DNA of 64,000 nt from Massilia sp. YIM B02763 (GTDB taxonomy: Bacteria > Pseudomonadota > Gammaproteobacteria > Burkholderiales > Burkholderiaceae_D). The stretch lies in NCBI RefSeq assembly GCF_030412015.1, contig NZ_JASNRD010000001.1, positions 310,001 through 374,000 on the forward strand. The letters are read 5' to 3'. Numbering within the stretch: the first letter of the stretch is position 1; every line of letters starts with the position of its first letter. This document shows, one piece after another, positions 27,012-47,083 of this stretch. The position numbers and the translations under genes are program-made. The notes beneath the pieces were generated by a model. That model was given only the letters and a program-made list of their open reading frames with translations. It made no database searches and was not told where the DNA came from.

Positions 27012-27806
27012 TCAGATTCCTTGCCCAAGCCTGAGCAGCGCAGGGTCCGGCGGCAGTTCGATTCCGAACTCTGATCGCACCCAGTGCAGGAAGCCGGCCC
27101 GTGCCGGATCGTGGATATCGACGTCCCAGAATCGGCTTCGCATCAACGCATGCAGTCCGTCGATCACCTCATGTGGCGATGCGGCGCGGATCTGCGCCAG
27201 CCAGGCCTCGTAGGTCTTCTTGCTCACCATCGACACTTCCGGATCCCATGCCCAGCATTCGCGGATCCTGGCGCGCAGCGAAAGCGGCTCCGCATATCGC
27301 TCGCGTGCGACGACGGGATCGTGGGAAGCCGTCAGCAATTCCCGCGCTCTCATCAAAGAAATGCCTTCCAGGTTGCAGCCAACCCAGTTGGCCTTGCCGC
27401 CAGACTGCACGCCGTCCGCCAGTACGGGCGCACTCCACATGGTGCCAGGATGGGTCGTCGACACGATCAGCTGTGTCCCGGTGCCGAGCAGAACATCGAG
27501 CATCTGGGGGTTGGCCTGGAATTTGTTGGAATGAGCCGTCAACAGATCGAAACGGATGCACTGCAGCCACTTCTCCTGGTCGCCCTGCTCCAGCGGACCA
27601 GCCATCGCCTCGAGCTCCGCTGGATCGTCCAGTGTCAGGAAACGATCGGCGGTGCCGTACAACTGCAGACGCGTCGCTTTCATATAGAGCAAATAATGCC
27701 ACGCGCTCATGAACCGATTGCGCAGGACATTGAACGGGGCAGGACAGCGCAATGACAAAGGGTCATCGGTGCGATCGACGACGACAACGCCAGGCTCGAC
27801 GTGCAT
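27012..27806 (-). CDS. NADAR-family protein (predicted ADP-ribose/N-glycosyl hydrolase)
   Basis: A 264-residue protein. The NADAR-like core is visible as WLQCIRFDLLTAHSNKFQANP (80-100), then LLGTG (106-110), an acceptor loop around TMWS (122-125) and WVGCNLEGISLMRARELL (141-158). NADAR/YbiA proteins hydrolyse N-glycosidic bonds of ribosylated compounds, and some remove ADP-ribose from guanine in DNA. This copy is longer than YbiA, with an extra C-terminal helical part (about 170-264) and a short N-terminal strand region, so its substrate may differ. It is the last gene of the six-gene WYL operon, 20 bp after the NucS-like gene. Confidence 0.72.
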   Translation of the reverse strand: MHVEPGVVVVDRTDDPLSLRCPAPFNVLRNRFMSAWHYLLYMKATRLQLYGTADRFLTLDDPAELEAMAGPLEQGDQEKWLQCIRFDLLTAHSNKFQANPQMLDVLLGTGTQLIVSTTHPGTMWSAPVLADGVQSGGKANWVGCNLEGISLMRARELLTASHDPVVARERYAEPLSLRARIRECWAWDPEVSMVSKKTYEAWLAQIRAASPHEVIDGLHALMRSRFWDVDIHDPARAGFLHWVRSEFGIELPPDPALLRLGQGI

Positions 27807-27826: not shown

Positions 27827-28726
27827 TCAGCCAGTTATAGGACGAACAGCGAAACCAAGTTCCGCCGCCCGCTCGATAAAAGCATCGATGTTACCAATTC
27901 CCCGCTGACTGCAAACGGCGGCCGGTCCATCCCGCAGTTCCATCAAGTCGCCGGGGTTCAAAAAATGACGGCGCCGTTCGTCCCTTGCATAGATATCATT
28001 TGCCTGATCGAGCGTCGAGACCACGCCAAGGGCCCCCTGTACCGATTTTGGGAAGGCTTTTTCCAGTTGCGCGAAGGTGATTTCGGGATGCGAGGCCACA
28101 TAGCGCTTCACGACCACCAAAACCAGACGCCCTTTTCCCAAGGTTTTTCCGTCGCACAGGTACTTGGTCAGGTCTTTCGCGCCAGGCAGCTTGAAGTAGG
28201 AATCTGTCGTAACCAGAACGGACCCCTCCCATCCCCGGAATCGTTGCAGGGTCAGCGCCGCGACGGGAATGCGGTCGACGACAGTCTGATATCCATCTCT
28301 GAAGAGTTTGGCGAAATCGGGAGCGATGCTGGAACCGACCAGGACACCGATCCACTTAGGATTGGGACTGGAATCGGCACCGAAAGTGTCCTTGTATGTC
28401 GACACCAACTGGGCCTTTTCGGACAAGTATTCTTCCAGCTGATCGAGCGCCGCCCGGTCGACCTCGCCCAGTTTGAGCGCGACGATGGCGACATACTGGT
28501 CCGAGTAGCTCGCGAGTATGTCAATGCGTCCCTCTCCGTCCTTGTTCTTCCGTACCCGTTCGAGCGGGACTTCCGCAGCAATGACCTCGACATTACTGAA
28601 CACATCGTCATCGAGCGCCAGCACTTGCTCATTGTCGATGAGATAGGCTTCCATCGATAGTTCTCGCTTGACCGGAAACGTTTCGAGCTGCACGCCGTTC
28701 ACGGTGATGTGACGGTAAATTCGCAT
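27827..28726 (-). CDS. NucS/DUF91-like nuclease-fold protein with degenerate active site
   Basis: A 299-residue protein. Residues 67-101 read GRIDILASYSDQYVAIVALKLG...QLEEYL, the layout of NucS/DUF91 PD-(D/E)xK nucleases (Asp, strand, ExK, QLxxY). The expected Glu of ExK is Ala83 here (ALK with K85), so catalysis is doubtful and nucleic-acid binding may remain. The C-terminal part (about 255-299) carries LNPGDLMELRDGPAAVCSQ and GIGNIDAFIERAAELGF. The start at 28726 has AGGGA upstream; the longer frame overlaps the WYL gene and is rejected. It sits between the WYL and NADAR genes. Confidence 0.55.
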   Translation of the reverse strand: MRIYRHITVNGVQLETFPVKRELSMEAYLIDNEQVLALDDDVFSNVEVIAAEVPLERVRKNKDGEGRIDILASYSDQYVAIVALKLGEVDRAALDQLEEYLSEKAQLVSTYKDTFGADSSPNPKWIGVLVGSSIAPDFAKLFRDGYQTVVDRIPVAALTLQRFRGWEGSVLVTTDSYFKLPGAKDLTKYLCDGKTLGKGRLVLVVVKRYVASHPEITFAQLEKAFPKSVQGALGVVSTLDQANDIYARDERRRHFLNPGDLMELRDGPAAVCSQRGIGNIDAFIERAAELGFAVRPITG

Positions 28727-28800
28727 GGCTTCCCTGTTTGTTGGCATTGACGATGATGGCGTCGACGAACTGGCAGGCCCGCCGCCGGGACCCTCGCTGA

Positions 28801-29808
28801 TCAGGCGTAGGCCGCAGCCATGCGCCGTGCGATGCCGCCCACCTCCTCGCGCAAGCCGGCCGGTTCCTGGATCACCACGCCGTCGCCGAAGCCGAGCAGC
28901 CACCATACGAGCGCCTTGGTATGCGGTACCGTCGCCGCCAGATGCAGCCGGCCGTCGATATCGCTGGTAAGTACTTGGTCGGCGCAAAGCGGCGTTTCGA
29001 ACAAGTGCTCGCCGGCCGCGCGCGTAAAGCTGGCGCGCAGGTTGATCGGAGCGCCGGCGATCACCCCGAACTGGCCGGATGCGATATACGCGTCGATGTC
29101 GAAACCGGGCTTCCTGCGCGCCGGCTCGTACAGCACCTCCGCCTCCTGCACGCGGTGTAGCGCGATCGTGCGCACGTCATCGTAATGGCCGAACATGCAG
29201 GCCAGGTAGACCAGGCCACCGCGCTGGACGACTGCGAGCGGGTGGACGCTGGCATAGACGGTCGGCGCCTCGGCGTCGCGTTTGCGGTAATGGAGCTTCA
29301 GCTGGCGATCCTGCATCAGCGCCAAGTAGACCTGCCGCTGGCATTCCTCGTCCATCCGCGGCGGCAGCAGCGGCTGCTGGGGTGGCACGCTGCGCACCTT
29401 GTCGAGCCAGGCCCGCGACGGGGCGGAGTCTTCGACGGCCGACAGGGTACGCGCCGCAGAGCGGAAATGCGGCTGCAAGGCATCGACCGTGATCGGCGGC
29501 AGGTGATGTCGCAGGTGCTGCTCGACCAGGGTCAGCGTCAGCGCCTCGGGCACGGTCAGGCCTGGCAGATCGAAACTCGAAGCGTCGCGCAGCCAGCTCC
29601 AGCCAAACGGCTTGTCGCGGCTGTCGACCACGATCGGGAACACTTCCGACAGCTCTTTCAAGTCACGCTCGACGGTGCGCTTGGTCACACTGAAATCAGC
29701 GGCGGCGAGGCGCTCGCACAAGTCTTTTGCCGACACCTTGGCGGGTGCGCGCGGCACCATGCGCAGCATGTGCCATTGCCGCAGCAGCGATTGCTGGTTG
29801 GTCGCCAT
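28801..29808 (-). CDS. WYL-domain transcriptional regulator
   Basis: A 335-residue regulator. An N-terminal winged helix-turn-helix (about 5-65, recognition region VTKRTVERDLKELSE) is followed by a linker, a WYL domain (about 150-230, LHYRKRD ... VHPLAVVQRGGLVYLACMFG ... RTIALHRVQEAEVL) and a C-terminal WCX-type domain (about 235-330). WYL regulators sense nucleic acids or nucleotides and control DNA-damage or phage-defence genes (for example PafBC and the BREX regulator). Strong GGAGG before ATG 29808, which overlaps the previous stop by 1 nt. It is the best candidate to bind the shared inverted repeats in this island. Confidence 0.85.
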   Translation of the reverse strand: MATNQQSLLRQWHMLRMVPRAPAKVSAKDLCERLAAADFSVTKRTVERDLKELSEVFPIVVDSRDKPFGWSWLRDASSFDLPGLTVPEALTLTLVEQHLRHHLPPITVDALQPHFRSAARTLSAVEDSAPSRAWLDKVRSVPPQQPLLPPRMDEECQRQVYLALMQDRQLKLHYRKRDAEAPTVYASVHPLAVVQRGGLVYLACMFGHYDDVRTIALHRVQEAEVLYEPARRKPGFDIDAYIASGQFGVIAGAPINLRASFTRAAGEHLFETPLCADQVLTSDIDGRLHLAATVPHTKALVWWLLGFGDGVVIQEPAGLREEVGGIARRMAAAYA

Positions 29809-30221
29809 CAGAAGCCCTCCGCCCAGCGCTCCCAGAAGCCCGGTTCGTCGTGCGCCGCATTTTCCATCGCGTGATCGAGGGGCATGACGAGGAAACGCAC
29901 GCCTTCATGGCGTATCGATCCATCCGGATGCTCGAGGTAATCGCACAGCGCGCGGTAGGCCGGCAGGCTGTCGTCGTAAGGAACGTCGATATAGACCTGC
30001 CCCAGGTAGGGTGCCATGAAGTTCGGATTGGCGAACGGGCCGCATTCCACCCAGGGCACGCCATTCCCATCGAACCAGGCCAGCACGAGCGCGCGCGTCG
30101 GATCCTGCTCGAATTCATAGTCGCGCCACTGTTTGAATGGCTTTGGATGAAATTCCAGGTAGAGGACGGCGCGCCTCTTCTGGCGGGCGATCGCGTCGAT
30201 GTGTTCGATGTGGCGGGGCAT
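29808..30221 (-). CDS. Unknown protein coupled to the WYL regulator
   Basis: A 137-residue soluble protein of no family I recognise. It is rich in aromatic and acidic residues (LYLEFHPKPFKQWRDYEFEQDP, WFDGNGVPWVECGPFANPNF, VYIDVPYDDSLPAYRALCDYL) and ends in FWERWAEGF. The start at 30221 is an ATG with a weak GAGAAG site; a TTG at 30266 would add 15 residues. Its stop overlaps the WYL start, implying coupled synthesis in fixed ratio with the regulator. A ligand-binding or protein-protein adaptor role is possible but unsupported. Confidence 0.6.
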   Translation of the reverse strand: MPRHIEHIDAIARQKRRAVLYLEFHPKPFKQWRDYEFEQDPTRALVLAWFDGNGVPWVECGPFANPNFMAPYLGQVYIDVPYDDSLPAYRALCDYLEHPDGSIRHEGVRFLVMPLDHAMENAAHDEPGFWERWAEGF

Positions 30222-30309
30222 GTCTTCTCGGGCAGCACCTTGGGCCAGGGCCACCTGCGCGTTCAAAATGTCATGTTACCAAAGTCATTTCCATAAAGAA
30301 ACTCCTGTA

Positions 30310-30960
30310 TCACGATTTCGTGTATCCGTATGCAACGGTGTGGCGTGCGCCAGGATCCTGTTCGCGCACCAATTGCGCGATCGCGGCCGCGATTTTGCCC
30401 CCACCCTGCGCGGACGGCTCTATCGGCGAAACGGCGGCATAGTCGCCCGCGTCGTCGCAGATCAGGCGCAGGTCCAGCACCGGCAGGCGGTGCGCCACCG
30501 CTTCGCGCAGGATCACATCATTGAACGGCGCCAGCGCCAGCTTCAGGCCCGGGTCGAGGCTGGGCACGGCATCGTAGATGGTCGCCAGCGCCACCGGAGT
30601 TCGCCTGGACAGCAACACATTCAGCATGCGTCGGTAGTCGTGCCGGAATCGTGCCTGCCAACCGGCGAACAGCGTCGTCGCTTCGATCACCGAGCCTACT
30701 TTGGTCTGCATCGCGCCGACCAGGCCCAGGACATCGTTGCCGCCGCAGCTGACCACCAGCCAGTCGGGCGCTTCCGGCAGCGCCTCGAGGCGCGCGACCT
30801 GTGCCGTCATGTCCGCCAGCACATCGCCGTCGCGCGCCAGCAGCGACACCCGGTCGTGCGGCGCCAGCAGCGATTGCAACTGGGCTTGCAGATACGTCCC
30901 GGTGGGGACGTAGGGGGCGTTGTCGAAGATCGAGTCCCCCATCAAGACTATATGCGCCAT
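30310..30960 (-). CDS. SGNH/GDSL-family protein
   Basis: A 216-residue SGNH-fold protein. Block I is LMGDSIFDN (6-14) with the nucleophile Ser10, and block III is SCGGNDVLG (about 71-79). Where block V should give DxxH, the sequence is AVSPIEPSAQGGGKIA, so the usual catalytic His and Asp are not in place. It may use other residues or act as a binder. Strong AGGAGG before the ATG. It is the second gene of the minus operon, 42 bp after the SLOG gene. Confidence 0.72.
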   Translation of the reverse strand: MAHIVLMGDSIFDNAPYVPTGTYLQAQLQSLLAPHDRVSLLARDGDVLADMTAQVARLEALPEAPDWLVVSCGGNDVLGLVGAMQTKVGSVIEATTLFAGWQARFRHDYRRMLNVLLSRRTPVALATIYDAVPSLDPGLKLALAPFNDVILREAVAHRLPVLDLRLICDDAGDYAAVSPIEPSAQGGGKIAAAIAQLVREQDPGARHTVAYGYTKS

Positions 30961-31002: not shown

Positions 31003-31491
31003 TCATTGGATGGCTGGCCGGGGACGCACGGCTTGCGACAGCGTTTGACGGACCAGATCGCCGATGCCGGGCGCGGACGATTCGCGCTTGCCGGCCACGT
31101 TCAGGGTCCTCACGCCGTGGCGGTTCAGGAAGCGCGCCACGTATTTCGGGTGCACGCCCGGCCGCACGTGCAGCCAAGGCTTGCCGACGCTTTCCGCGAA
31201 TGCGCTCGTGCGTTTGGAACCGCCGTCGAGCCGGTCCGTCAGCGTGAAGATCAAGGTCGCGTCACTGTCCCTGACGTTCCATTCGGTGCGCTGGAGATAG
31301 CCCGCGTCCGGCGTTTCCTGCAGACGGTAGCACTCCGCCAGCACCCCGTCCTCCGTCTTGCGTCTCCGCGGGCACCAGCCGCCGTGGCGGATGCCTTGCT
31401 CCATTGCCCAGTCGAGGGCAGCGCGGTCGGCACCGCTTTGGCCGCCGGAGATCAGCGTGAAGCCGTCGCCAGCCAGGAATACTTCATCCAT
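31003..31491 (-). CDS. SLOG-superfamily protein (YpsA-related, 'putative molybdenum carrier' type)
   Basis: A 162-residue Rossmann-like protein. Residues 13-22 read LISGGQSGAD, the nucleotide-binding loop of the SLOG superfamily; then AALDWAMEQGIRHGGWCP and KTEDG match the circularly permuted YpsA-like group often named molybdenum carrier. SLOG proteins bind nucleotide-derived ligands and occur in conflict systems such as Thoeris. The start at 31491 follows GGAGC; the longer frame reaches back through the divergent operator and is rejected. It is the first gene of the six-gene operon and has the best copy of the shared inverted repeat 41 nt upstream. Confidence 0.78.
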   Translation of the reverse strand: MDEVFLAGDGFTLISGGQSGADRAALDWAMEQGIRHGGWCPRRRKTEDGVLAECYRLQETPDAGYLQRTEWNVRDSDATLIFTLTDRLDGGSKRTSAFAESVGKPWLHVRPGVHPKYVARFLNRHGVRTLNVAGKRESSAPGIGDLVRQTLSQAVRPRPAIQ

Positions 31492-31521: not shown

Positions 31522-31559
31522 AGTGTAAGCGCGCCTCGCGACAATCGATGTCGCGAGGC
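31522..31559 (-). promoter_or_regulatory. Operator 1 (best copy) and -10 box of the SLOG-WYL-NADAR operon
   Basis: GCCTCGCGACA (31533-31543), five bases, then TGTCGCGAGGC (31549-31559): perfect 11-nt arms. A -10 like TACACT reads on the minus strand at 31527-31522, five bases from the repeat, so the repeat covers the -35 region. Same core (GCGACA-N5-TGTCGC) as the sites at 31563, 37572 and 37700. Confidence 0.7.
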
Positions 31560-31562
31560 CGA

Positions 31563-31595
31563 TGCGACGCCGTTTGTCGTGTCGCCGGATACAGT
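31563..31595 (+). promoter_or_regulatory. Operator 2 and -10 box of the 66-aa protein/hydrolase operon
   Basis: TGCGACG-CCGTT-TGTCGTG (31563-31581) is a weaker copy of the shared repeat, centred 26 bp from operator 1 and facing the opposite transcription unit. A -10 like TACAGT (31590-31595) follows after 8 nt, and the start codon is 46 nt after the repeat. Confidence 0.55.
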
Positions 31596-31627
31596 CAACG
31601 GTATCACCGGACGAGGAGGACACCACA

Positions 31628-31828
31628 ATGAACAGGCAGACCCTGACCGACGCGCGCTACCACACCATCGGCTACATCGACACAGCGAAGGACGGCAAGC
31701 AGACCGCGCGGGACGTAGGGTACCGCGTGGTCGGTCATTACGACCCGCGCACGGATACCACCCGCGATGCGCGTCACCACATGGTCGGTCGCGGAAATCT
31801 GCTCGCTTCGCTGATTCCTTCCCGCTAA
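31628..31828 (+). CDS. 66-residue triple-repeat protein of unknown function
   Basis: A 66-residue protein built from three copies of a short unit: DARYHTIGYID (8-18), DVGYRVVGHYD (29-39) and DARHHMVGRGN (47-57), then LLASLIP. Each unit has D, an aromatic or His position, V/I-G and an acidic or Asn end, suggesting a small beta-repeat fold. The N-terminus MNRQTLTD nearly matches that of the sirtuin at 37762 (MNQQTLRD). It is first in the divergent plus-strand unit and carries operator 2. Function unknown. Confidence 0.65.
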   Translation: MNRQTLTDARYHTIGYIDTAKDGKQTARDVGYRVVGHYDPRTDTTRDARHHMVGRGNLLASLIPSR

Positions 31829-31841
31829 CGGAGATGTCACG

Positions 31842-32369
31842 ATGACGAATGGACTGGTTCACTTCATGCACGGCAAGGAGAGCGGCCCTGGCGGCAGCAA
31901 GATCACGGCACTGGCCGAGGTGGCAAGGGCACGTCGTTGGGATGTCGCCATCCTCGACTATTCTCATACGACCGATCCGGCCGCCCGTCTCGTCCAGCTG
32001 CTCGGGGCCTGCGCCGACGTACGCGGGCCCTTGCTGCTCGTGGGATCGAGCATGGGCGGCTGGGTTGCGGCCGAAGCGGCGGCCCGCCTTTCGGCGCATG
32101 GGGTGTTCCTGCTCGCCCCCGCCCTTTTCGTTCCCGGTTATGCGACCCAGGCCCCGCAAGTGCCGGCTGGGCGCACGGAGATCGTGCACGGCTGGGATGA
32201 CGAGGTCATTCCTTGCGAAAACGCGATCCGCTTCGCACGCCTGCGCCACTGCAGCTTGCACTTGGTGCAGGGGGATCACAGGCTAGACACCTGCATTCCG
32301 CTGTTGCGTGAGCTGTTCGACGCCTTTTTGGCGCGCTGCAGCGCGGACCGCGCTGGGCAGGCACCGTGA
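31842..32369 (+). CDS. Alpha/beta hydrolase, YqiA/RBBP9-like
   Basis: A 175-residue single-domain alpha/beta hydrolase. It has the oxyanion-side motif HGKESGPGG (10-18), a nucleophile elbow GSSMGG (about 68-73) and a C-terminal GDHRL (about 145-149) for the catalytic His, with an Asp in WDDEVIP (about 118-124). This matches small esterase-like proteins of the UPF0227/RBBP9 type. The substrate is unknown. It starts 13 bp after the repeat protein with GGAG in front and is part of the same unit. Confidence 0.78.
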   Translation: MTNGLVHFMHGKESGPGGSKITALAEVARARRWDVAILDYSHTTDPAARLVQLLGACADVRGPLLLVGSSMGGWVAAEAAARLSAHGVFLLAPALFVPGYATQAPQVPAGRTEIVHGWDDEVIPCENAIRFARLRHCSLHLVQGDHRLDTCIPLLRELFDAFLARCSADRAGQAP

Positions 32370-32418
32370 CGAAGCGGTTTCCGGCGCTCGGCAGGACGAT
32401 TTCATCGAAAGGACGAAT

Positions 32419-32679
32419 ATGCACACGCATCAGCACGCAGCCGGCGAGCGCTTTGGCACTGCCGACCCCCTCTGGCCAGAGGTGATCGCCTGGATCGACG
32501 GCTTGCGCCATCAGGGCGAAACGATCCTGCCGTACCCGATCTCGCGCCTGCAGCGGCAATTCAGGATCGGCTATTCGCGCAGCTGCGCCCTTGTGGATGC
32601 GCTGGCGCTGGACAGGCACTGGACCATCGAGTTCACCGAGGACGGCAAGCGCTGCGCCTGCCCCCGTGCGCAGGCATGA
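32419..32679 (+). CDS. Stand-alone FtsK-gamma-like winged-helix protein
   Basis: An 86-residue protein. Residues 38-62 (PYPISRLQRQFRIGYSRSCALVDAL) closely resemble the gamma domain of FtsK, a winged helix that reads oriented chromosome sequences (ISxxQRxFRIGYNRAARLxExL). Here the domain stands alone with no translocase. It could be a small DNA-binding protein or a decoy of FtsK sites. The stop overlaps the ATG of the next gene (ATGA). The start at 32419 has a GGA-rich site; an earlier frame adds unrelated sequence. Confidence 0.65.
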   Translation: MHTHQHAAGERFGTADPLWPEVIAWIDGLRHQGETILPYPISRLQRQFRIGYSRSCALVDALALDRHWTIEFTEDGKRCACPRAQA

Positions 32680-33122
32680 GCAACGTCTTTCCGGATTGCC
32701 TGCGATTTGCCGGCCTGCTGTACGCGATCGACAGCGCTCCCCTCGAGCCCTACCTGGCCTCGCTTTCCACGCAGCCGCCAAGGCGGATTACGCCGTTCTC
32801 GCAACGCGGCTATGTCGCGACCTGGACGATCTACGAGGGTACCCTGTATCTGAGCGATATCACATCCCGCGATCACGCCATGCTGTTTGCCCATGCCGGC
32901 GCACCCGTGGCGGCATCCTGGTTCAGCGGTTTCATTCGCGGTTGGCGTGGCGATGGGCGCCGCACGGGCCCAACTGCCCGCAAATTCTGGGATGACGAGA
33001 TCGTACTCGAGGTCGTGGCAGGGCGGGTCGCGCGGGAATGGCGGCTCGATCTCAGGGCCGTCCCGGATCAGACCAGCGAGGAGCGATACCAATCCCTACC
33101 GGCCTTTTTCTTCAGGCCATAA
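32676..33122 (+). CDS. Unknown protein of the 'RGYVATW' type coupled to the winged-helix gene
   Basis: A 148-residue soluble protein. RGYVATWTIYEGTLYLSDI (about 44-62) resembles a small-protein pattern (RGYVATWEIxDGxLyL) that I associate with immunity-like or contact-toxin loci, but I cannot name a family. The end is Arg/Phe rich. It is translationally coupled to the winged-helix protein, so the two may act as a pair. It closes the operator-2 transcription unit, 62 bp before the next, AT-rich start. Confidence 0.5.
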   Translation: MSNVFPDCLRFAGLLYAIDSAPLEPYLASLSTQPPRRITPFSQRGYVATWTIYEGTLYLSDITSRDHAMLFAHAGAPVAASWFSGFIRGWRGDGRRTGPTARKFWDDEIVLEVVAGRVAREWRLDLRAVPDQTSEERYQSLPAFFFRP

Positions 33123-33184
33123 ATACTTGCAATAAAGAAATTTATTAACCATACTATTAGTCATATTTAGTAACTTAGCTAGAC
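33123..33184 (+). promoter_or_regulatory. AT-rich promoter region before a separate three-gene unit
   Basis: A 62-bp stretch of unusually low GC. TTGCAA (about 33127) and TACTAT (about 33152) are 19 nt apart, and no copy of the shared inverted repeat is present. The base composition contrasts sharply with the flanks and suggests recent insertion of the following genes. Confidence 0.4.
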
Positions 33185-34054
33185 ATGAATCAGACCACCG
33201 TAGAAGAAGCAACCCGGTTCGGGGACGCTGTTGCTGCCTACCTGAGGCTGCACAGGCACGAATTGAAGAACTATGCGTGGCCGCTGTCCCCCATGGCCAG
33301 GAAGAAGGCCCGCGAATACGGGCTTCCAGTCGGCGACGAGGATGGCGGTGCGCGGGCGACGCAGGAGCTTCGCAAGGCTGTCGCGCAGCGGGTGCGGGAA
33401 GTGCACGGCTTGTCCGGCGTGCAGCGCGACGCCCGCATGGCGGAACTGTGCGGTTTCGTGATCCGGGTGTGGGGAGGGCTTGCCAGCAATAGCGACGACA
33501 CCATCGAAGCCTATTCCAGGGTGTTCCTCGACGCTTGCCCTCCCGACCTGTCGGACATCCGGTCGCCCCGCCAGCTGCGCAGCCACGCGGGATGCGGCTT
33601 TCCCTTCAAGGGGATTTCCAGCTGGTCCAAATGGCTGAATTTTGTCTGGAGCGACTGGGCGCTGATCTACGATGCCCGCATCGGATTCGCACTGAATGCG
33701 ATCCACTTTCGCGAAGGCGTCGACGCGCGCGCATTCCGCGTCCCCGATGGACGCGACGCACTGCTCAGCAAGATCGATACCCAATCACTGGCCGCACTGG
33801 GTTACCTGAAACGCCGCGGCGAGCAGGTCCCCGGACTGGCCATGGACAACAAGAAGCTCGTCCGGTGGATGGAGGCCGCTTTGGCACCCGCAGCGGAGAC
33901 CTACGAATACTATCTGCTCGTCATGCAGCGCACTCGCGACGTGCTGGACCAGGAGGAGCCTTGCTCGCTCGTCGAGGCCGAAATGCTGCTGTTTTATTTA
34001 TCCAACCGCCAGCTCGTCCGTGATCTGCTGGGCTCGCTTAGCAGTTCGATCTGA
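33185..34054 (+). CDS. Unknown 289-residue protein
   Basis: A soluble, mostly helical protein with no family I can assign. Conserved-looking stretches are FVIRVWGGLASNSDDTIEAY (about 95-114) and FPFKGISSWSKWLNF followed by WALIYDARIGFALNAI (about 139-173), a pattern seen in helical nucleic-acid enzymes, but this link is weak. It has no clear Shine-Dalgarno sequence. It is first of three plus-strand genes lying between the two operator regions. Confidence 0.55.
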   Translation: MNQTTVEEATRFGDAVAAYLRLHRHELKNYAWPLSPMARKKAREYGLPVGDEDGGARATQELRKAVAQRVREVHGLSGVQRDARMAELCGFVIRVWGGLASNSDDTIEAYSRVFLDACPPDLSDIRSPRQLRSHAGCGFPFKGISSWSKWLNFVWSDWALIYDARIGFALNAIHFREGVDARAFRVPDGRDALLSKIDTQSLAALGYLKRRGEQVPGLAMDNKKLVRWMEAALAPAAETYEYYLLVMQRTRDVLDQEEPCSLVEAEMLLFYLSNRQLVRDLLGSLSSSI

Positions 34055-34145
34055 ACGACGGGGGTCTGCCCTCTTCCTTGCAACCCATCGGATGCGGGCC
34101 GTGGCGTCACGCGTCCGAACGACAAACCATCGAGAACCAGGAACC

Positions 34146-34694
34146 ATGAACGCGCACGACGAAGCAAAAATCATTCACAGGGTCGAGAACAACGCCTTCT
34201 CGAAAGACGAGCTGGTTTCGTATTACGAGAACATCAAAGCGCGCGGAGCAACTCCACGGGCATTGAAGGCTATCGAAAGCCGCCTGTACAAGGAGTATCC
34301 TCAGGCCGCCCGTTCCCTGTTCGGCGCCAAGGAAGAATATGCGGTGGAAGTGCTGACCCGCCTGTCGATTGCGCTGAAAGCGGACTTCGATTTCACTGCG
34401 AACAAGGTGGAAAACCATATCAAGACCGGCGGACACGAGATTTCAGGCACGGCATTCCTGTGCCGCTACCTCTCTTACAAGAATGCTGACAACCAGGGGG
34501 CCCAGCTTACCCTTGAGCAGGCGACGTTCGACAGCGAACTGCTGATCACCGTCGACCGCTACCAGACCAATGCGAAGGAACACAATTACCGCAATGGTGT
34601 GCAGTTCGGCATGGGCCAGTTCGAGGCCGCTGCCAACTTGTACCGCCAATATCTCGAAGAACTCGGCATACCGCGGCGGCGCCAGGCAGCGTGA
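34146..34694 (+). CDS. Unknown 182-residue protein
   Basis: A soluble, charged, probably alpha-helical protein: residues 1-60 are helical and basic, then KEEYAVEVLTRLSIALKADFDF and a C-terminal FGMGQFEAAANLYRQYLEELGI. No known motif was recognised. The start at 34146 is preceded by a weak site; the longer frame from 34020 overlaps the previous gene. It lies between the 289-residue protein and the putative ADP-ribosyltransferase-like protein and may belong with them. Confidence 0.5.
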   Translation: MNAHDEAKIIHRVENNAFSKDELVSYYENIKARGATPRALKAIESRLYKEYPQAARSLFGAKEEYAVEVLTRLSIALKADFDFTANKVENHIKTGGHEISGTAFLCRYLSYKNADNQGAQLTLEQATFDSELLITVDRYQTNAKEHNYRNGVQFGMGQFEAAANLYRQYLEELGIPRRRQAA

Positions 34695-34715
34695 ACGTTC
34701 ATGCCAGGACACCCA

Positions 34716-35294
34716 ATGAATATCTTCCGTGCCGTGCCCCGCGCCGGCTTCGATCCGGCGCGCTTGCACACGCGGCACCCCGGCACGCGCCTGCCGGCAA
34801 ACGTTCCCTATCTGGTCGATAACCTGTGGGAGTTCACAAGGCCGGCCAGCATGCCTTCCCGCCGCAAGAGCGTGTATGCCAGCCCGAGCGCCTCATTGGC
34901 GCTGGACGGTGCAGCGGGCGTCGGTCGAGCACAGGACGGCTTCGTTGCCTGCCGTGTCGTATGCCGCTATCCGCCGACATGCTTTCAGTTGTCGGTCACC
35001 GATGCCCGTTACCACCCGGACGTCAAGGCACTGCAAAAAGTGGTCCACGCAAGATTGGCTGACCTGGGCCCGGCCGGGCTCCAGGACAAGCTCGCGTTAG
35101 CGCCGCTGTTCGTCCCGGGGATGACGCCCGACGAACTCCATGCCGCCATGGAAGGCAATGCCGCGCTTCGCGATCTCGTGCAGGAATTGGCGGCCCTCGT
35201 CACTTTGTGGACGGGCACGCCGGATCCCGATGCCGGCGAACTCTTCTTCGAGATCGACGAGAACAACGTCTACAGCCTGCACCCCGTCGGGTAA
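34716..35294 (+). CDS. Unknown protein with an ADP-ribosyltransferase/RES-like segment
   Basis: A 192-residue protein. Residues 25-66 read RLPANVPYLVDNLWEF...PSRRKSVYASPSASLAL. The element RRxSVYASPxxxLAL resembles the second block of RES/ART-fold enzymes (GRxN...VYLAxxxxTALxE), where the Tyr stacks on NAD+. An upstream HTRHPG (18-23) could give the first-block His or Arg, and an acidic strand near 179-185 (FEIDEN) could supply the last residue. This is pattern-level inference only. Its position between NADAR and sirtuin genes makes an NAD-using activity attractive. The start is the ATG at 34716. Confidence 0.4.
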   Translation: MNIFRAVPRAGFDPARLHTRHPGTRLPANVPYLVDNLWEFTRPASMPSRRKSVYASPSASLALDGAAGVGRAQDGFVACRVVCRYPPTCFQLSVTDARYHPDVKALQKVVHARLADLGPAGLQDKLALAPLFVPGMTPDELHAAMEGNAALRDLVQELAALVTLWTGTPDPDAGELFFEIDENNVYSLHPVG

Positions 35295-35434
35295 TTCGAC
35301 TCTCGACAACGCAGCCCAGGTGCGCACGGGCTGGTCACTTGCACGGTGCGAGGTAGCCATCGCTCCCGGCAAGCCGCGCGCACCGGCCTGCGCCTGCATG
35401 GCGCGCGGCCTGCTTTTCCGGTGGCGACGGTGGA

Positions 35435-37534
35435 TCACCCCAGGAATCCGATCGGCGGCGACACAGGCACTTTCAGAGCACACTCCTGCGCGAGCGCCTG
35501 CACGAAGGCGGCCGCCGAGCGGACCGGGCGGAAGCGGTTCTGGCGAACCACCGCCGAAAAATCGCCCGGGGTCAGATTGCGCAGCGCGCGCAGCCGGCCA
35601 AGCTCGGATTCGGTCGCCGGCGCCAGTTCCAAACCGACCAGGTAGCGCCCGAGCAGCAGCGCCGCCTGCCCGGGCAAAAGAAAATCGAAGCATACCTTCA
35701 GATCGAAGCGGCGCAGCGCCGCCGGATCGAGACCGGCCACCAGATTGGTCGATGCGATGAATACGCCGGAATAAACCTCCATCCGGGTCAGCATCTCGTT
35801 GACCATCGTGACTTCCCAGGACTGTCGTGCGCGTCCACGGTCCTGCAAGAAGCTGTCCACCTCGTCGATCAGCAGCAAGCCGTTTTCGCTTTCGGCCCGC
35901 TGGAATGCGGCGGCGATGTTCTTTTCGCTTTCGCCCACCCACTTCGAGACCAGATCGGACACCCTGTAAACCAGGAGCGGCATGTCCAGCCGCTCGGCCA
36001 GCCAACGTCCGTAGCCGGTCTTCCCGGTACCGGGGGGACCATACAGACACAGCCTGGCACAGCGGCTTGCGGCGATGCCGTCGGCAAGCTCCAGCAAGTG
36101 GGTGTCCGCATTCACCAGCGCGGCATCGTATTCGGGCGGCAGGCGCGCGGCCTCGCCTTGCCGCAAGGGCGCGTGACCCTGGGCTTCGAGCGACCGGTCG
36201 AGCAGGAATTCGAGTGCGCGGGCGGCGTGTGCCGGGTCGAGCCTGGCTCCGATGGTACGCACCACGTCGGCTGCACGGCTGACCACTGCGGGAGCCAGTT
36301 GCGGCGAGGATGCGACACGCCGGACTGCATCCTCGTCGAGCACGCCGGCGCAGGTTTCGCGCACCATCCGCTCGCGCTGCCTGCGCGGCGGCACCGGCAT
36401 TTCGATGACCATGTCGAAGCGGCGCAAGAAAGCCGGATCGATGTTCTCGATCGTGTTCGACAGCCACAGGGTCGGGACGGTATTCTGTTCCAGCGTGCGG
36501 TTGAGCCAGGCCTTGCGCTTTTGCGCCGTACTCATGCGGCCGAACAGGCGGTCGCCGTCGTTGAAGACGTCTTCCACCTCGTCGAACAGGATCATGGCCT
36601 TGCGCTGGCCAAAAAAACTCTGCGCGGCGCGGAAAGCCCGCAGTCGGCGTTCGCCCAGGACCGGATCGCCGTCGGCGTCCTCGCTGGCGACGTCGAACAG
36701 TTCGCAGCCCAGTGCCTTGGCGAGCGCACGCGCCAGCTCGCTTTTCCCCGTGCCCGGTGCGCCATGCAGGAAAACGTTGACGCCCACGCGGCCAGTCGTC
36801 AGCGCCTGCTCGAGGTAAGGCGTCAGCAAGGCAAGAGAATCGTCGATATGCCCGTAGTCGGACAGCTCGAGAAGCGCCGGCGCGCTGGGGCTGACGGTAT
36901 CCCTCAGCAGCGTCATCGCGTCCGCTTCCGCGCCCAGGATCAGGTCCGCGAAACTGTCGGACAGCAGGTCGAGCTTGCCGCGCAGGTAGCCGCTGCCGCC
37001 GCGGTCGACCGTCAGGAGGCCGGAGCGGGCAAGCACCCCATGGGCGCCGAGGGCGGTCTGTACGCAGCGGCGGTCGAGGTCCAGCACGGTTGCCAGTACA
37101 TCGACGACTTTCACCGAATTGAGCTGGCCGAGGGTGTCCGCGCAATCGTCCAGGACCCGGTCATGGTGGATCAGCGCGGCGAACTCGAGGATCCGGCAGT
37201 CGGTGTCCGACAGTCCCACGAGCTGGGCAAGCCGCGTCATATTGGCCCGCAGGCCGGATGGCGGCGCCAGCCTGGCCGCACTGGCCTCGGCGGCGACGTG
37301 CAGTTCGCGCAACTGGCTGCGGACGGTCGCGTTGTCGAAGTCGAGTTCATCGTTATCGATCCAGTCGCCGACACCGACAAAACGGGCGACCGTATCTTCG
37401 GAAAACCCGTTACGCAGGACAAAGACTTTATGACCTGCCAACGGGACCAGGATGCGCAACATCCAGAGCTGGTAAATGGACTCGATCTGCTGGACTGGCG
37501 AAGGCTTGGAAGGACGGTGGCGTTGGGTTTTCAT
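35435..37534 (-). CDS. Tandem AAA+ ATPase
   Basis: A 699-residue protein. An alpha-helical N-terminal region (about 1-220) precedes two AAA+ modules. The first has Walker A GAPGTGKS (about 258-265) and Walker B ILFDEVED (about 314-321). The second has GPPGTGKT (about 500-507), LLLIDEVDSF (about 552-561) and sensor-like IASTN and LRRFD stretches. Two-ring or CDC48/spastin-like remodelling is suggested, with the target given by the N-terminal domain. It is monocistronic, divergent from the sirtuin, and has a perfect shared repeat 37 nt upstream. Confidence 0.85.
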   Translation of the reverse strand: MKTQRHRPSKPSPVQQIESIYQLWMLRILVPLAGHKVFVLRNGFSEDTVARFVGVGDWIDNDELDFDNATVRSQLRELHVAAEASAARLAPPSGLRANMTRLAQLVGLSDTDCRILEFAALIHHDRVLDDCADTLGQLNSVKVVDVLATVLDLDRRCVQTALGAHGVLARSGLLTVDRGGSGYLRGKLDLLSDSFADLILGAEADAMTLLRDTVSPSAPALLELSDYGHIDDSLALLTPYLEQALTTGRVGVNVFLHGAPGTGKSELARALAKALGCELFDVASEDADGDPVLGERRLRAFRAAQSFFGQRKAMILFDEVEDVFNDGDRLFGRMSTAQKRKAWLNRTLEQNTVPTLWLSNTIENIDPAFLRRFDMVIEMPVPPRRQRERMVRETCAGVLDEDAVRRVASSPQLAPAVVSRAADVVRTIGARLDPAHAARALEFLLDRSLEAQGHAPLRQGEAARLPPEYDAALVNADTHLLELADGIAASRCARLCLYGPPGTGKTGYGRWLAERLDMPLLVYRVSDLVSKWVGESEKNIAAAFQRAESENGLLLIDEVDSFLQDRGRARQSWEVTMVNEMLTRMEVYSGVFIASTNLVAGLDPAALRRFDLKVCFDFLLPGQAALLLGRYLVGLELAPATESELGRLRALRNLTPGDFSAVVRQNRFRPVRSAAAFVQALAQECALKVPVSPPIGFLG

Positions 37535-37557
37535 GAGACATCTCCTTGGAGAAATTC

Positions 37558-37590
37558 ATCATAAGGACGCTTGCGACATTTCATGTCGCA
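37558..37590 (-). promoter_or_regulatory. Operator 3 and -10 box of the AAA+ gene
   Basis: TGCGACA-TTTCA-TGTCGCA (37572-37590) has perfect 7-nt arms and the same 5-nt spacing as operator 1. On the minus strand a -10 like TATGAT (37563-37558) follows after 8 nt, so the repeat occupies the -35 position. Confidence 0.7.
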
Positions 37591-37699
37591 GGGTAAGGGC
37601 CAAGCGTCGTTACGGCAGCAGGCCTGATCGACGCAGCCTTTCCTGAGCCAGAACGTCGAGGACGGCCGTTCCGGCGCGAACCCCGGACTGCATACTATG

Positions 37700-37718
37700 T
37701 GCGACGACGCTTGTCGCA
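37700..37718 (+). promoter_or_regulatory. Operator 4 upstream of the sirtuin gene
   Basis: TGCGACG-ACGCT-TGTCGCA matches the shared repeat with one mismatch in the left arm. It lies 43 nt before the sirtuin ATG. No convincing -10 follows at the same distance as for the other three sites; a GATACAT lies somewhat further downstream. Confidence 0.6.
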
Positions 37719-37761
37719 GCCCAGTGCAGGATGGATACATCCAACCCGTACAGGAACACGC

Positions 37762-38646
37762 ATGAACCAGCAGACCCTCAGGGACGGGCACAGCCAGAAC
37801 ATGGACGCCGTGCCTCTCGATCACGAAGCCATCGAACAGGCCGCCGCATTGATCTCCAGCGCTGATGCACTTGTAATCGCCGCCGGCGCGGGCATCGGGG
37901 TCGATTCCGGCCTGCCCGATTTCCGCGGCAACGCCGGCTTCTGGAAAGCGTACCCGGCGCTCGCGGCCGAAGGCACTGCCTTCATGGATATCGCGTCGCC
38001 GGCCGCGTTCCAGCGTACGCCACGCCGCGCCTGGGGCTTCTATGCACACCGGCTGGCGCTGTATCGCGCCACCATCCCGCACGCCGGATTCGGACTGTTG
38101 CGCAAATGGGGCGATGCGATGGCGCGAGGCAGCTTTGTGTTCACCAGCAACGTCGACGGTCAATTCCAGGAAGCTGGATTCGATCCGCTACGCATCGATG
38201 AATGCCATGGTTCGATCCACCACATGCAGTGCCTGGCGCCATGTTCCCAGGCGACATGGCCGGCGACCGGTTTTACGCCAACGGTCGACGCGGCGCGCTG
38301 CGAATTGCTCGGTGCGTTGCCGACGTGTCCACACTGCGGCGGCCTGGCGCGCCCGAACATCCTCATGTTCGACGACTGGGCCTGGGTGGACGCCAGGCGC
38401 GAAGCGCAAGCCGCGCGACGCCAGTGCTGGCTCGAGCAGGTGCGACGGCCGGTCGTCATCGAGATCGGCGCAGGCGTCAATATCGCGACGGTCCGCCACT
38501 TTGCGCACCGGATCGTGCTTCAGCATAAGGGGCCCCTCGTCCGCATCAACCCGCGCGAGCCGCATGTCAGCCACTTGCTCGGCGTCGGGATCGCCGGCGG
38601 GGCGCTGCAGGCGTTGACCGCCATCGATGCGATGCTGCCGGCATGA
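37762..38646 (+). CDS. Sirtuin (SIR2-family NAD+-dependent deacylase/ADP-ribosyl enzyme)
   Basis: A 294-residue SIR2 protein. The NAD+ loop GAGIGVDSGLPDFRG lies at about 41-55, the TSNVDG stretch at about 128-133 and the catalytic-His region ECHGSIHH at about 147-154. Zinc-type cysteines include CLAPC (about 157-161) and CPHCGG (about 190-195). These fit a Zn-containing deacylase rather than the zinc-less SIR2 of Thoeris ThsA. The N-terminus MNQQTLRD repeats the start of the 66-residue island protein. It carries operator 4 and its stop overlaps the next ATG. Confidence 0.85.
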   Translation: MNQQTLRDGHSQNMDAVPLDHEAIEQAAALISSADALVIAAGAGIGVDSGLPDFRGNAGFWKAYPALAAEGTAFMDIASPAAFQRTPRRAWGFYAHRLALYRATIPHAGFGLLRKWGDAMARGSFVFTSNVDGQFQEAGFDPLRIDECHGSIHHMQCLAPCSQATWPATGFTPTVDAARCELLGALPTCPHCGGLARPNILMFDDWAWVDARREAQAARRQCWLEQVRRPVVIEIGAGVNIATVRHFAHRIVLQHKGPLVRINPREPHVSHLLGVGIAGGALQALTAIDAMLPA

Positions 38647-39356
38647 CAGCGCTGGAGACGGCGACCGCGCCGCAGACGCTGTTTTACGAATTGGTCGAAC
38701 TGGCCGACGTGATATTCGACATGCTGACCGGACCGGACGTGGCTGTCAGGCAGTGGTCGGCGTACGACATGGTGTACGTGCAAGTCGGGCGGCTGTGCCG
38801 CGACCTCGGCCAAGCGACTGGCCACCTTGGGCGTCCTTTCATCGACGTCAACGGCAAGATCGACACGCCGCGCATCGTTACGGCCAACGCTTGCCTGGCG
38901 CGGATCGGCCGGCATGTCCGCGTCATCGTCGACCTGCTTGGCCGCATCGAGCAGCATCGCCTGGTCATCTACGGAAATCCTGCGTTGCAGGACGTCATTC
39001 AGGCGCATTTTTTCGCCGGCAGTGCGTGGTACCAAATGTGCCAAGTGCAATTTTGCGCCGGCCACATCGCGCCCGATGGCCTCGTAATGGATCGCACGGC
39101 CTTGCTCATCGATCGTTATCCGGTCGATCGCGTAGCCGACATCCAGGGAAAGAATCTGTTGCAGCGCCAGAGGTTCCGTCTCTTGCCGATGCAGTCACGC
39201 GCGCCGCTGGAGTTAACGCGCCGGGACGTGCAAGCCAAACTGAATCGGGTGCATGCAGCCTTGCGCCAGTTTCTTCTTTCTCGTTCCCCGTCTGTCACGG
39301 CCCCCTTGCCACCAACGAGCCATCGGAAAGGCGCCGAAGCCACACTGCTCGTATGA
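38643..39356 (+). CDS. Unknown protein coupled to the sirtuin
   Basis: A 237-residue soluble protein without a recognised family. The N-terminal two thirds look alpha-helical (FYELVELADVIFDMLTG, RHVRVIVDLLGRIEQHRL), followed by GSAWYQMCQVQFCAGHI and a basic tail that may be disordered. The ATG overlaps the sirtuin stop (ATGA), which argues that the two proteins form a complex or that this one is the sirtuin's substrate or regulator. Confidence 0.55.
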   Translation: MTALETATAPQTLFYELVELADVIFDMLTGPDVAVRQWSAYDMVYVQVGRLCRDLGQATGHLGRPFIDVNGKIDTPRIVTANACLARIGRHVRVIVDLLGRIEQHRLVIYGNPALQDVIQAHFFAGSAWYQMCQVQFCAGHIAPDGLVMDRTALLIDRYPVDRVADIQGKNLLQRQRFRLLPMQSRAPLELTRRDVQAKLNRVHAALRQFLLSRSPSVTAPLPPTSHRKGAEATLLV

Positions 39357-39446
39357 ACATTTCCATAAAGGAATTGCATGTTGACGGCCTATCCTTGATA
39401 CTTCAATCTATTGCGTGTTCAACATCTCCTACGGCCAGCGCCTGTC

Positions 39447-42400
39447 ATGCAAAAGAACGGTCCCGAACTCCTTTACTCTCCCAGCGACTTGACCACCTTC
39501 GTCGCCAGTCCGTTTGCCAGCTGGATGGCGCGCTTCGCGCTTGAACATAAGGACGAACTGCCGCCGGAAGACGCTCCGGACGCCTTGATGACACTGCTCG
39601 CCGAACGCGGCCTCGCGCACGAGAAGAGCAAGCTGTCGCTCTTGCGCGCAAAAGAACTGAACATCGTCGAGATCGCGACGAGCGGTTCGCGCACTGCCCG
39701 CGCTGCGGCGACGCTCGAAGCCCTGCAATCGGGCGCCGACGTCGTTTATCAGGCCTACCTGGCGCTGGCGCCATTCGCCGGCGTGGCGGATTTCCTGATC
39801 AAGGTACCGGGCTCTTCCGCGCTAGGCGATTGGCATTATGTCGTGTGGGACACCAAGCTGTCGTCCACCGTCAAGCCCGATTATTTGTTGCAGATGTGCT
39901 GCTACGCCGAGATGCTGGAATCGATCCAGCAGCGTATGCCGGGTACGCTGACCGTGGCCCTTGGCAACGGCAAGGACGTATCATTCAAGACCGCTGACTA
40001 TTTTTCCTACTACCGCTGCATCAAAGCCGACTTTTTGCAAGCACAAGCCGATTTCGACTGCGCTGCGCAACCGGATCCAGCCGATTCCGATGCGTGGGGG
40101 CGCTGGTCGGACCATGCGAATAGCTTGTTACTGGAACGCGACCACCTGATTCAAGTGGCAAATATTCGTAAGAGCCAGATTGCACGCTTGACGGCTGCAG
40201 GTATCACGACGATGAGCCAATTGGCGGATGTATCGCCCACGGCCGAGATAAGGGGCATCAATCCGCAAGTCTTGGCGAAGCTGCGGGCACAAGCCCGCAT
40301 CCAGCGCGACAGTGCGGATCGCGCAACGCCGCTTTTCGAAATCCTGACGGCGCCGAACCAAGGGTTGGAATTGCTGCCGCCGCCGTCGGCGCTGGACGTG
40401 TTCTTCGATATCGAAGGCTTTCCGCTCGAACGGGGCGGCCTGGAATATCTCTGGGGCTGCACCTTTTTCGATGACGCTCGACAGCGGCAATTCATCGATT
40501 TCTGGGCGCACAACGCCGAACAAGAGAAACAGTGTTTCGCCGATTTTATCGGATGGGCGTATGCGCGCTGGCAGCAGGATCCGTCCATGCACATCTACCA
40601 TTACGCGAGTTATGAAATCACTGCCTGCCGCAAACTGATGGGGCAGTACGGCATCTGCGAAATGGAAGTCGATGAGCTGCTGCGTAACAACGTCTTCGTC
40701 GACCTCTACAAGGTCGTCAAAGGCTGCTTGCTGCTCGGCGAGCCGCGCTATTCGATCAAGAACGTCGAGCACCTTTACCGCGAACGGCGCAGCACGGAAG
40801 TTGCCAATGGCGGCGATTCGGTCGTCGCCTACGAAGCGTGGCGGACACGATTCGCGCTCGATCACCCGGGCATTCCACCCGCACGGGATGCATGGCGACA
40901 GTACGACATACTGGCCAACATTCGCGCTTACAACAAGGACGACTGCGACTCGACGCAAGAACTGGTGGATTGGTTGCGCCAGCAGCAGCACGTGCATGGC
41001 ATCGTCTACCGGACGCCGCACGATGACGCGGCGGGCGAGGAAGCGCAGCCGGTGCACGACACCCCCCGCGTCCATGTCGATCTGCTCGCGATGGCCATGC
41101 GCGAACGGGCCGCGGGCGCGGGCGCTGCCGATGCCGATGCCACCGACGTCCCGCTGGCCGAGACCTTGGCGTGGCTGGTCGAATTCCACCGGCGCGAAAG
41201 CAAGCCCCTGTTCTGGCGCCTGTTCGACCGGATGGGCCAATCCGAAACCGAGTTGTTCGACGACCTCGATTGCATTGCCGGATGCCTGCGTACCGGGCGC
41301 GCACCATTCAAATTGGCACCGAAGGACAGGAATCTGGTTTATGAGTACCAGTTCGATCCCGACCAGGAATGCAAGGGACTGTCCGGCAAATATCACGTGC
41401 TCGATGCCGGCGACAAAGTCGATGTTGCACTGCTGGATTCAGCCCGGGGACTGCTACTCGTGAAAGCCAGGGCGGAGCCACCCGCGCGCATGACGCTGGT
41501 CCCCGACGAATTCGTGAATCCGCACCCTATCCCAGCCGCCATCGAGACGGTGCTGACGCATTATGTGGCCACAGCCGGGACCGGCGACTCGGCCATCCGG
41601 GACTTCCTGCTACGCCGACCGCCGCGCATCCGCCATATCACCGCCGGGCAAGCACTCGTCACCGCCAGCACGGGTGCCGAACGGCTGAAGGAAATCATCG
41701 CTGCCGTCAGTGGCTTGCAGCAGTCTTGCCTCACCATTCAAGGACCGCCAGGGACCGGGAAAACGTACACGGCGTCGCGTGTCATCGCCGAACTGATGCG
41801 TCAAGGGAAAAAGGTCGGCATCAGCAGCAACAGCCATAAAGCCATCAACAATCTGGTGTTGCGAACAGCGGAAGTGTGTGCCGAAGAGAATATCGCAGCG
41901 ACGTTTGCATGCACAAAAGACACCGATCCCAAAATCCAGCAGCTCGGCGTGGCGGTCATCGCCAACAAGGATCTGATTGGTCGGCTCCAGCCCGGGTGTG
42001 TGATCGGCACGACGGCATGGGGTTTTTGCCGTCCTGAGCTCGAACAACAATTCGACTATTTGTTCGTCGACGAAGCAGGCCAGGTCAGCGTCGCCAATCT
42101 GGTCGGCATGAGCAACGCTGCACAAAACATCGTGCTGATCGGCGACCAGATGCAATTGGGCCAGCCGATGCAAGGCACGCACCCGGGCGACAGCGGCAAG
42201 TCCGCGCTCGACTACCTGATGGGTGAGCAGGCCACGATTGCCAACGATCGCGGCATCTTCCTGGACACCACGGTACGCATGCACCCGGCCGTAAATAAAT
42301 TTATCTCCAGTGCGATTTACGACGGCCGCCTGCAAGCCGCCGACGGCAATGAGCGCCAGGTGGTGCGCGTGCCGGAGGGATATGCCGGTCCCCTGGACCA

Positions 42401-47026: not shown

Positions 47027-47083
47027 GTAAAACCTTGTGGTATTGAAGGAGTAGTGCATTTCGCCTACGGCAATTGCAAAACT

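Follow-up and report, generated by a model that had tools for sequence, protein, structure and literature searches.

An inverted repeat at four divergent promoters of a Massilia island, a probable operator of a DriD/PafBC-type WYL activator

A 64,000-nucleotide stretch of DNA from Massilia sp. YIM B02763 (contig NZ_JASNRD010000001.1, positions 310,001 to 374,000; here called the window, G+C content 0.656) contains an island in which four transcription units start from two divergent intergenic regions. Each of the four promoters has its own copy of one inverted repeat, with two copies in each intergenic region. The repeat is described by the reference TGCGACA-N5-TGTCGCA (19 bp), and copies are scored by their matches over the 14 arm positions. 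The first unit encodes, among others, a SLOG protein, a regulator with a WYL domain and a NADAR-domain protein, while the other three start with the small repeat protein S66, a double AAA+ ATPase and a sirtuin (Table 1). S66, U152 and similar names are working labels, and the single transcript per unit is presumed from gene spacing. The repeat is probably the operator of the WYL protein, which would act as an activator of the DriD/PafBC type that switches on a mobile and modular regulon.

All four repeats claimed in the preliminary description of this DNA were located in the sequence, and the distance of 37-46 nt from repeat to start codon holds for the four different units (SLOG, 31491 on the minus strand; S66, 31628 on the plus strand; AAA+, 37534 on the minus strand; SIR2, 37762 on the plus strand), each start codon being 47-56 nt away from the centre of the repeat that serves it. 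Operator 1 is a perfect inverted repeat, with 11-bp arms that are 100% complementary around a 5-bp centre. The position of operator 2 is kept in two related loci, L101 and L103, which have stronger copies there (handles with L denote compared stretches, those with G genomes). In the whole window, 11 matches with up to three mismatches were found versus 5.5 expected, and 11 were reached in 3 of 100 shuffles; this count is only twice that of chance and is, therefore, weak evidence by itself. None of the remaining seven matches (1235, 6722, 7479, 19025, 29495, 30491 and 31034) stands before the helicase, McrBC or 33-35 kb genes, in agreement with the claim that these lack the repeat. Within the two intergenic regions, four such sites were obtained in none of 2000 dinucleotide shuffles (mean of 0.027 sites). 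The fully symmetric core GCGACA-N5-TGTCGC occurs only twice in the 5.9-Mb genome, both times in the window. The looser GCGACR-N5-TGTCGC has nine genomic places, three of them in the window, versus one for the control, which here and below is the reversed pattern.

A -10 box follows three of the four repeats, as had been described, and the fourth has a degenerate candidate; the gap is, however, 8-9 nt from the 19-bp repeat and not the 5-8 nt given earlier. The repeat also covers the -35 region, as had been proposed, but, as judged over related promoters, it offers no good -35 hexamer spaced 16-18 nt from the -10. When scanned with the sigma-70 consensus, the four sites gave no promoter, consistent with the missing -35. 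The generality of this layout is seen in a list of promoters from 92 stretches, defined by repeats of at least 12/14 lying outside called genes and 25-90 nt before one, and deduplicated to 74 promoters in 29 blastp clusters, many of them single. The list holds some repeats by chance, orthologous promoters in the counts are not independent, and the genes were called by a custom script that missed some starts. Counted from the downstream edge of the repeat, TAnnnT starts at +8 in 17 promoters and at +9 in 19 (36 of 74 together), and at the remaining 32 offsets of the range 0-33 it starts 11 times in total; with shuffled flanks, +8/+9 gave a mean of 1.6 and a maximum of 7 in 1000. With one promoter per cluster the phased TAnnnT is present in 16 of 29 clusters, and NAnnnT at +7 to +9 is found in 56 of the 74 promoters. 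In the 36 phased promoters the TGTCGC half-site adjoining the -10 is nearly invariant and the far half is looser, while the best -35 at 16-18 nt from the -10 has at most two of six consensus bases in 31 of them.

Table 1. Features of the window (upper rows) and features in related loci (lower rows).
Feature	Position	Strand	Sequence or assignment	Remarks
Operator 1	31533..31559 (core 31537..31555)		GCCTCGCGACA-N5-TGTCGCGAGGC	12/14; serves the SLOG operon (minus strand)
Operator 2	31563..31581		TGCGACG-CCGTT-TGTCGTG	weak, 11/14; serves the S66/hydrolase operon
Operator 3	37572..37590		TGCGACATTTCATGTCGCA	perfect, 14/14; serves the AAA+ gene
Operator 4	37700..37718		TGCGACGACGCTTGTCGCA	13/14; serves the sirtuin operon
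Predicted -10	31522..31527	-	TACACT	9 nt from operator-1 core
Predicted -10	31590..31595	+	TACAGT	8 nt from operator 2; read from the sequence
Predicted -10	37558..37563	-	TATGAT	8 nt from operator 3
Degenerate -10 candidate	37727..37732	+	CAGGAT	8 nt from operator 4
SLOG protein, cpYpsA type	31003..31491	-	Pfam PF12694, E 3e-51	first of unit 1
GDSL hydrolase	30310..30960	-	Pfam	unit 1
U152, 152 aa, family-less	29808..30266	-	no Pfam match	unit 1; conserved beside WYL in relatives
WYL regulator	28801..29808	-	Pfam WYL and WCX; HTH_11 below cut-off	unit 1; proposed binder of the four operators
Protein of no known family	27827..28855	-		unit 1; start uncertain
NADAR-domain protein	27012..27806	-	Pfam PF08719, E 3e-13	last of unit 1
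S66, 66-aa repeat protein	31628..31828	+	no Pfam match	first of unit 2
Alpha/beta hydrolase, UPF0227/YqiA-like	31842..32369	+	Pfam	unit 2
Double AAA+ ATPase	35435..37534	-	Pfam PF00004, E 5e-43	unit 3
Single-domain sirtuin, NAD-dependent deacylase type	37762..38646	+	Pfam SIR2; NCBIfam PRK00481-like below cut-off	unit 4
237-aa protein of no known family	38643..39356	+		unit 4, after the sirtuin
AddA-like/AddB-like genes	L188 2-5952 (G259)		clustering with L043 genes	weak, below NCBIfam cut-offs
FtsZ/tubulin-like	L129 6889-7827		Pfam	
FtsZ/tubulin-like	L119 10615-11406		weak	
FtsZ/tubulin-like	L178, before 8216		clustering	369-aa gene
Histone-deacetylase fold	L119 7184-8080		Pfam	
Histone-deacetylase fold	L129 12355-13257		clustering	
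Histone-deacetylase fold	L127 16034-16972		clustering	
Variant-box site	L117 11363		TGCGACG/C-N5-CGTCGCA	
Variant-box sites	L118 8258, 10660, 16146		TGCGACG/C-N5-CGTCGCA	

That the repeats are no operators at all, and represent RNA hairpins, terminators or chance, is scarcely credible. The stems do fold well (z of -3.1, -4.0 and -1.4); nonetheless, the repeat lies upstream of its own -10, the centre varies while the arm sequence is kept, and no Rfam family matches over 27-43 kb. Taken together, the promoter and terminator scan, the folding and Rfam gave no support to a terminator or RNA element, which was rejected, and chance is excluded by the intergenic shuffles, the genome-wide core counts and the promoter phasing. 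A promoter for an extracytoplasmic-function sigma factor was dropped by reasoning only, given a distance of 20-21 nt between the distal half and the -10, and given that such a promoter would not need a palindrome.

The box and the WYL gene occur together. Homologues of the WYL protein were found in 15 of 62 genomes of the genus (E <= 1e-50) and in 22 of 250 genomes of the order (E <= 1e-30), the own genome being included in both counts and having one protein of this family (E <= 1e-10). In the genus, the 15 genomes with WYL hold 38 core sites versus 6 control sites, and the 47 others 17 versus 18 (Fisher p of 0.0005). In the order, the perfect 19-mer is present at 10 places in 8 of the 250 genomes and its reversed control at 3 places in 3; five of these eight genomes have the WYL gene, versus 22 of 250 overall (p of 0.00016), and they account for 7 of the 10 places, none of them farther than 8 kb from the WYL gene. 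A test across the class was set beforehand, in which 369 genomes were searched with the promoter pattern GCGACA-N5-TGTCGC-N9/10-TAnnnT alone and WYL was called at E <= 1e-25. It gave 15 sites in 12 genomes and 7 control sites in 7, so that about half of the matches may be chance. WYL was present in 7 of the 11 matched genomes (own genome excluded), in 1 of 7 genomes with the control pattern and in 3 of 25 others, which is a clear enrichment (7/11 versus 4/32, p of 0.002). In the seven matched genomes with WYL, the gene is on another contig in two and approximately 1 to 75 kb from the site in five.

Phasing of the -10 follows the same division. In additional stretches from genus genomes with WYL, 9 of 18 core sites have a -10 at +8/+9, while this was found for 0 of 13 core repeats from genomes without a close WYL. 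These 13 are the sites fetched from 20 known in the genus and order scans, and four of them are from genomes or relatives with a distant WYL only (G193, G253, counted twice by stretch, G274 and G276; E of 3e-21 to 9e-13). The nine sites without a -10 are those of L189 and L190 (inside genes), L191, L194, L199 and L200, one of L196 and two of L197. On the side of the -10, the nearest called gene start is no more than 120 nt away in four of the nine with one; L186, L187, L192, L195 and L198 have the -10 and no called start within that distance.

These counts also bear on whether the operator belongs to another protein of the island, such as U152, the AAA+ protein or a small FtsK-gamma-like protein, with WYL merely co-travelling. 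These genes also recur in islands with the box upstream, and G193 has a box before AAA+ with only the distant WYL match (3e-21). WYL was often the bait in the island comparison, but the class test used the promoter alone and still met WYL in 7 of 11 genomes; two loci found in this manner (L249 and L252) have WYL and no AAA+ match within the stretch. In addition, WYL is the only protein here seen with the helix-turn-helix and sensor build of a known activator, and we regard another binder as quite improbable. A regulon bound by the WYL protein, as originally suggested, is supported as the best reading, but its confinement to the window did not hold, because the box is also found at related islands, on plasmids and at loci unlinked to WYL. 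In G286 more than 2 Mb separate the S66 and AAA+ promoters from the WYL genes detected at E <= 1e-50. In G259 an AddB-like/AddA-like pair that has both the box and the -10 is approximately 0.5 Mb from the WYL gene.

Conservation, a check proposed for the repeat, was examined in stretches for 39 of the 45 WYL matches outside the own genome and in 10 plasmid records out of the 18 that had a match. Repeats of 12/14 or better were found in 32 of the 39 stretches and in 8 of the 10 plasmid loci; some of these repeats lie within genes, and some must be due to chance. Perfect repeats are present even where WYL is 36-38% identical (L119, L129-L132), and the pair formed by sites 1 and 2, with its 26-nt centre-to-centre spacing, recurs in L100, L101, L103 and L107. 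The repeat precedes WYL itself, or a DUF2779 gene followed by WYL, in L119, L121, L122, L125 and L128-L132. Given this, and the position of WYL inside the operon served by operator 1, autoregulatory feedback by the WYL protein is likely. No repeat of at least 12/14 was found at the WYL loci L044, L102, L120, L123, L133, L134, L136, L137 and L177, some of which are short contigs. From 45 SLOG loci, 11 were used in the promoter count (L036, L039-L047 and L070), while L037 and L038 duplicate L101 and L103. The remaining 32, which are mostly SLOG alone, were not in that count; they include one 12/14 repeat each in L049 and L064, McrBC in L054 and a WYL match at 23% in L057. The nearest SLOG relatives listed are from Herbaspirillum sp. 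SJZ107 and Massilia (84-82% identity).

A second group of WYL paralogues, 61-62% identical to the window WYL, is accompanied by the variant box of Table 1, which suggests possible covariation of operator base 7 with the recognition helix. G160 has two inverted copies of a DUF2779-WYL island (L129 and L130), with the same gene order and approximately 0.8 Mb apart. The record of L177, NZ_CP077849.1, is a 3.66-Mb Acinetobacter sequence that is classed as a plasmid and has only 45 features; no good box lies within 12 kb of its WYL relative.

The WYL protein has an N-terminal winged helix-turn-helix, a helical linker or bundle, a WYL domain and a WCX domain, in the order of the DriD/PafBC-type build. 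The profile search gave DriD at 1e-19, PafBC at 5e-16 to 2e-11, CapW at 2e-4 and BrxR at 4e-3, and Foldseek gave 2e-16, 1e-12, 1e-7 and 5e-6 for DriD, PafBC, CapW and BrxR, respectively; in most rows of the structure-match list the residues after about 249 were barely tested. DriD is the nearest solved relative in both sequence and fold. The two proteins have in common the recognition-helix pattern R-T-x-E-R, and among 37 sequences R219 is invariant and R213 nearly so, both aligning with DriD arginines (by alignment only).

A mechanism can be proposed from this. In a WYL dimer each winged helix would take one half-site (CGAC/GTCG), and the promoter-proximal half, TGTCGCA, would lie at about -27 to -21, followed by the gap of 8-9 nt and the -10 box. 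The dimer would dock over the -35 region of promoters on which the housekeeping RNA polymerase alone is expected to be weak; given that no usable -35 is present, the polymerase should need the docked dimer. The CGAC-N7-GTCG core, together with the PafBC spacing, favours activation by a DriD-type dimer. The signal would most likely be a nucleic acid, by analogy only with single-stranded DNA for DriD and PafBC, and the output a mobile and modular set of NAD+/ADP-ribose and nucleotide enzymes, AAA+ machines and nucleases.

The members of the regulon in the window would include SLOG, NADAR, sirtuin and AAA+ proteins. Elsewhere the box adjoins genes for DUF2779, FtsZ/tubulin-like proteins, M41 peptidase, ankyrin proteins and ADP-ribosylglycohydrolase, and a PD-(D/E)XK protein in L188. 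Histone-deacetylase-like proteins are at the box in two promoters without a -10, and a 5'-nucleotidase lies 97 nt from a box without TAnnnT. In the locus comparison no sirtuin match was found in the islands with histone-deacetylase-fold proteins (L119, L129 and L127), where these proteins may perhaps replace the deacylase role of the sirtuin. In L178 the FtsZ/tubulin-like gene is divergent from AAA+, with boxes in between. The mixture of NAD/ADP-ribose, nucleotide and nuclease genes suggests a role in damage repair or phage defence.

A wider proposal, which we make only tentatively, is that the box marks a mobile, SOS-independent DNA-damage regulon of Beta- and Gammaproteobacteria, in which one DriD-type WYL activator controls interchangeable NAD+/ADP-ribose, nucleotide, deacetylase, AAA+ and nuclease modules. 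If so, a gene would join by gaining TGCGACA-N5-TGTCGCA-N8/9-TAnnnT, even far from the regulator, as with the AddAB-like pair at 0.5 Mb. Single-stranded DNA would then report phage attack or DNA damage, and the answer would be defence or repair based on ADP-ribose or NAD. Operator and phased -10 together provide a sequence rule by which scattered regulon members can be located. Many NAD/ADP-ribose and nucleotide genes that are so far uncharacterised would come under one switch, and the sign of control becomes testable. In the open-access literature, outside which most subscription papers lie, no relevant title was among the matches listed for the operator motif, and no open-access publication was found on DUF2779 together with WYL.

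As for other genes of the island, S66 consists of an 18-aa repeat (DARxHxxGYID or a variant) present approximately three times. It has relatives in L036, L039, L101, L103, L104, L107, L118 and L196 and no Pfam or NCBIfam match, and S66 genes own 12 of the 74 box promoters. The small FtsK-gamma-like protein (32416-32679) has a weak winged-helix match below cut-off, and five box promoters belong to its relatives. A large RNase H-helicase protein (39411-42890, MkoA-like in PADLOC) and a McrBC pair with a 212-aa gene (43309-47059) adjoin the regulon without a box. The AAA domain of the unit-3 ATPase matches the IetA/IteA model below the NCBIfam cut-off, and TRIP13 models matched less well than IetA. 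No tRNA that could flank the island was found in the window.

The known systems are compared here within the cited passages of their papers. DriD has the operator ATACGAC-N7-GTCGTAT over a poor -35 and at a constant distance to the -10, and activates once its WYL domains bind single-stranded DNA (PMC12340889, preprint). The window system resembles it in domain order, in the CGAC-N7-GTCG core and in the placement of the site, which overlaps a poor -35 and keeps its distance to the -10 constant. It differs in that the proteins are approximately 20% identical, the outer bases are TGCGAC/GTCGCA versus ATACGAC/GTCGTAT, the targets are island genes versus didA/bapE, and the window WYL type is encoded in variable islands and plasmids. 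PafBC promoters in mycobacteria have tTGTCRgtg-8 nt-TannnT (PMC5656591), close to TGTCGCA-N8/9-TAnnnT; PafB touches the -26 motif (PMC11804915), and SiwR, likewise from mycobacteria, relies on the -26 region too (PMC10693628); both are WYL activators that act through sigma adaptation or a related -26 mechanism. PafBC is, however, a heterodimer with a one-sided motif; the window motif is palindromic and comes with a single WYL gene.

BrxR and CapW are WYL repressors of BREX and CBASS islands (PMC9122601, PMC9122589, PMC9122588), and comparison with them raises the possibility of the same regulon and the same WYL binder with the opposite sign, the dimer blocking RNA polymerase at the -35 and leaving when a phage product, an ADP-ribose derivative or a nucleic acid binds the WYL domain. 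They share with the window WYL the winged helix-turn-helix-WYL-WCX build, a palindrome and an island location, with two sites in pEFER. The BrxR operator, a promoter inverted repeat of 10-11 bp with a 5-bp centre, is matched by the geometry of site 1, the Acinetobacter BrxR covers the -35, and restriction genes (McrBC) are nearby. On the other hand, repression needs neither the 8-9 nt phasing over many unrelated genes nor the missing -35, which suggest activation, the closest relatives by profile and Foldseek are activators, with BrxR and CapW less similar, and the helix is shared with DriD. The string SRQQ, a recognition motif of the Acinetobacter BrxR and its close homologues, is absent from the window WYL in a string check that was not an alignment to BrxR; it is likewise absent from E. 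fergusonii BrxR. No match to a BREX core or CBASS cyclase was found among ten window proteins scanned. For these reasons we consider a repressor rather unlikely and prefer the DriD-type activator.

In the ARG-centred systems proposed to act in ADP-ribose counter-defence (Iyer et al. 2022, PMC9503650), a WYL factor likewise accompanies ADP-ribose and nucleotide enzymes. One plasmid locus of Methylomonas, which encodes YbjN, yfbR and ADP-ribosylglycohydrolase, has TGGGTCAGAATTTGTCGCA-N9-TATCCT before YbjN, a 12/14 box with its -10, which ties these systems to the window box, and in G669 an ARG gene is under the box. An ADP-ribosylglycohydrolase gene together with a WYL or Nudix regulator, as in these systems, is present in the related loci L176 (by annotation) and L249, and Pfam found no ADP_ribosyl_GH among 20 proteins of 27-47 kb in the window. 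In the passages cited, negative WYL factors with ADP-ribose sensing are predicted for these systems, which would be repressors released by ADP-ribose and would favour repression here as well, whereas the layout in the window points to activators that may sense DNA damage.

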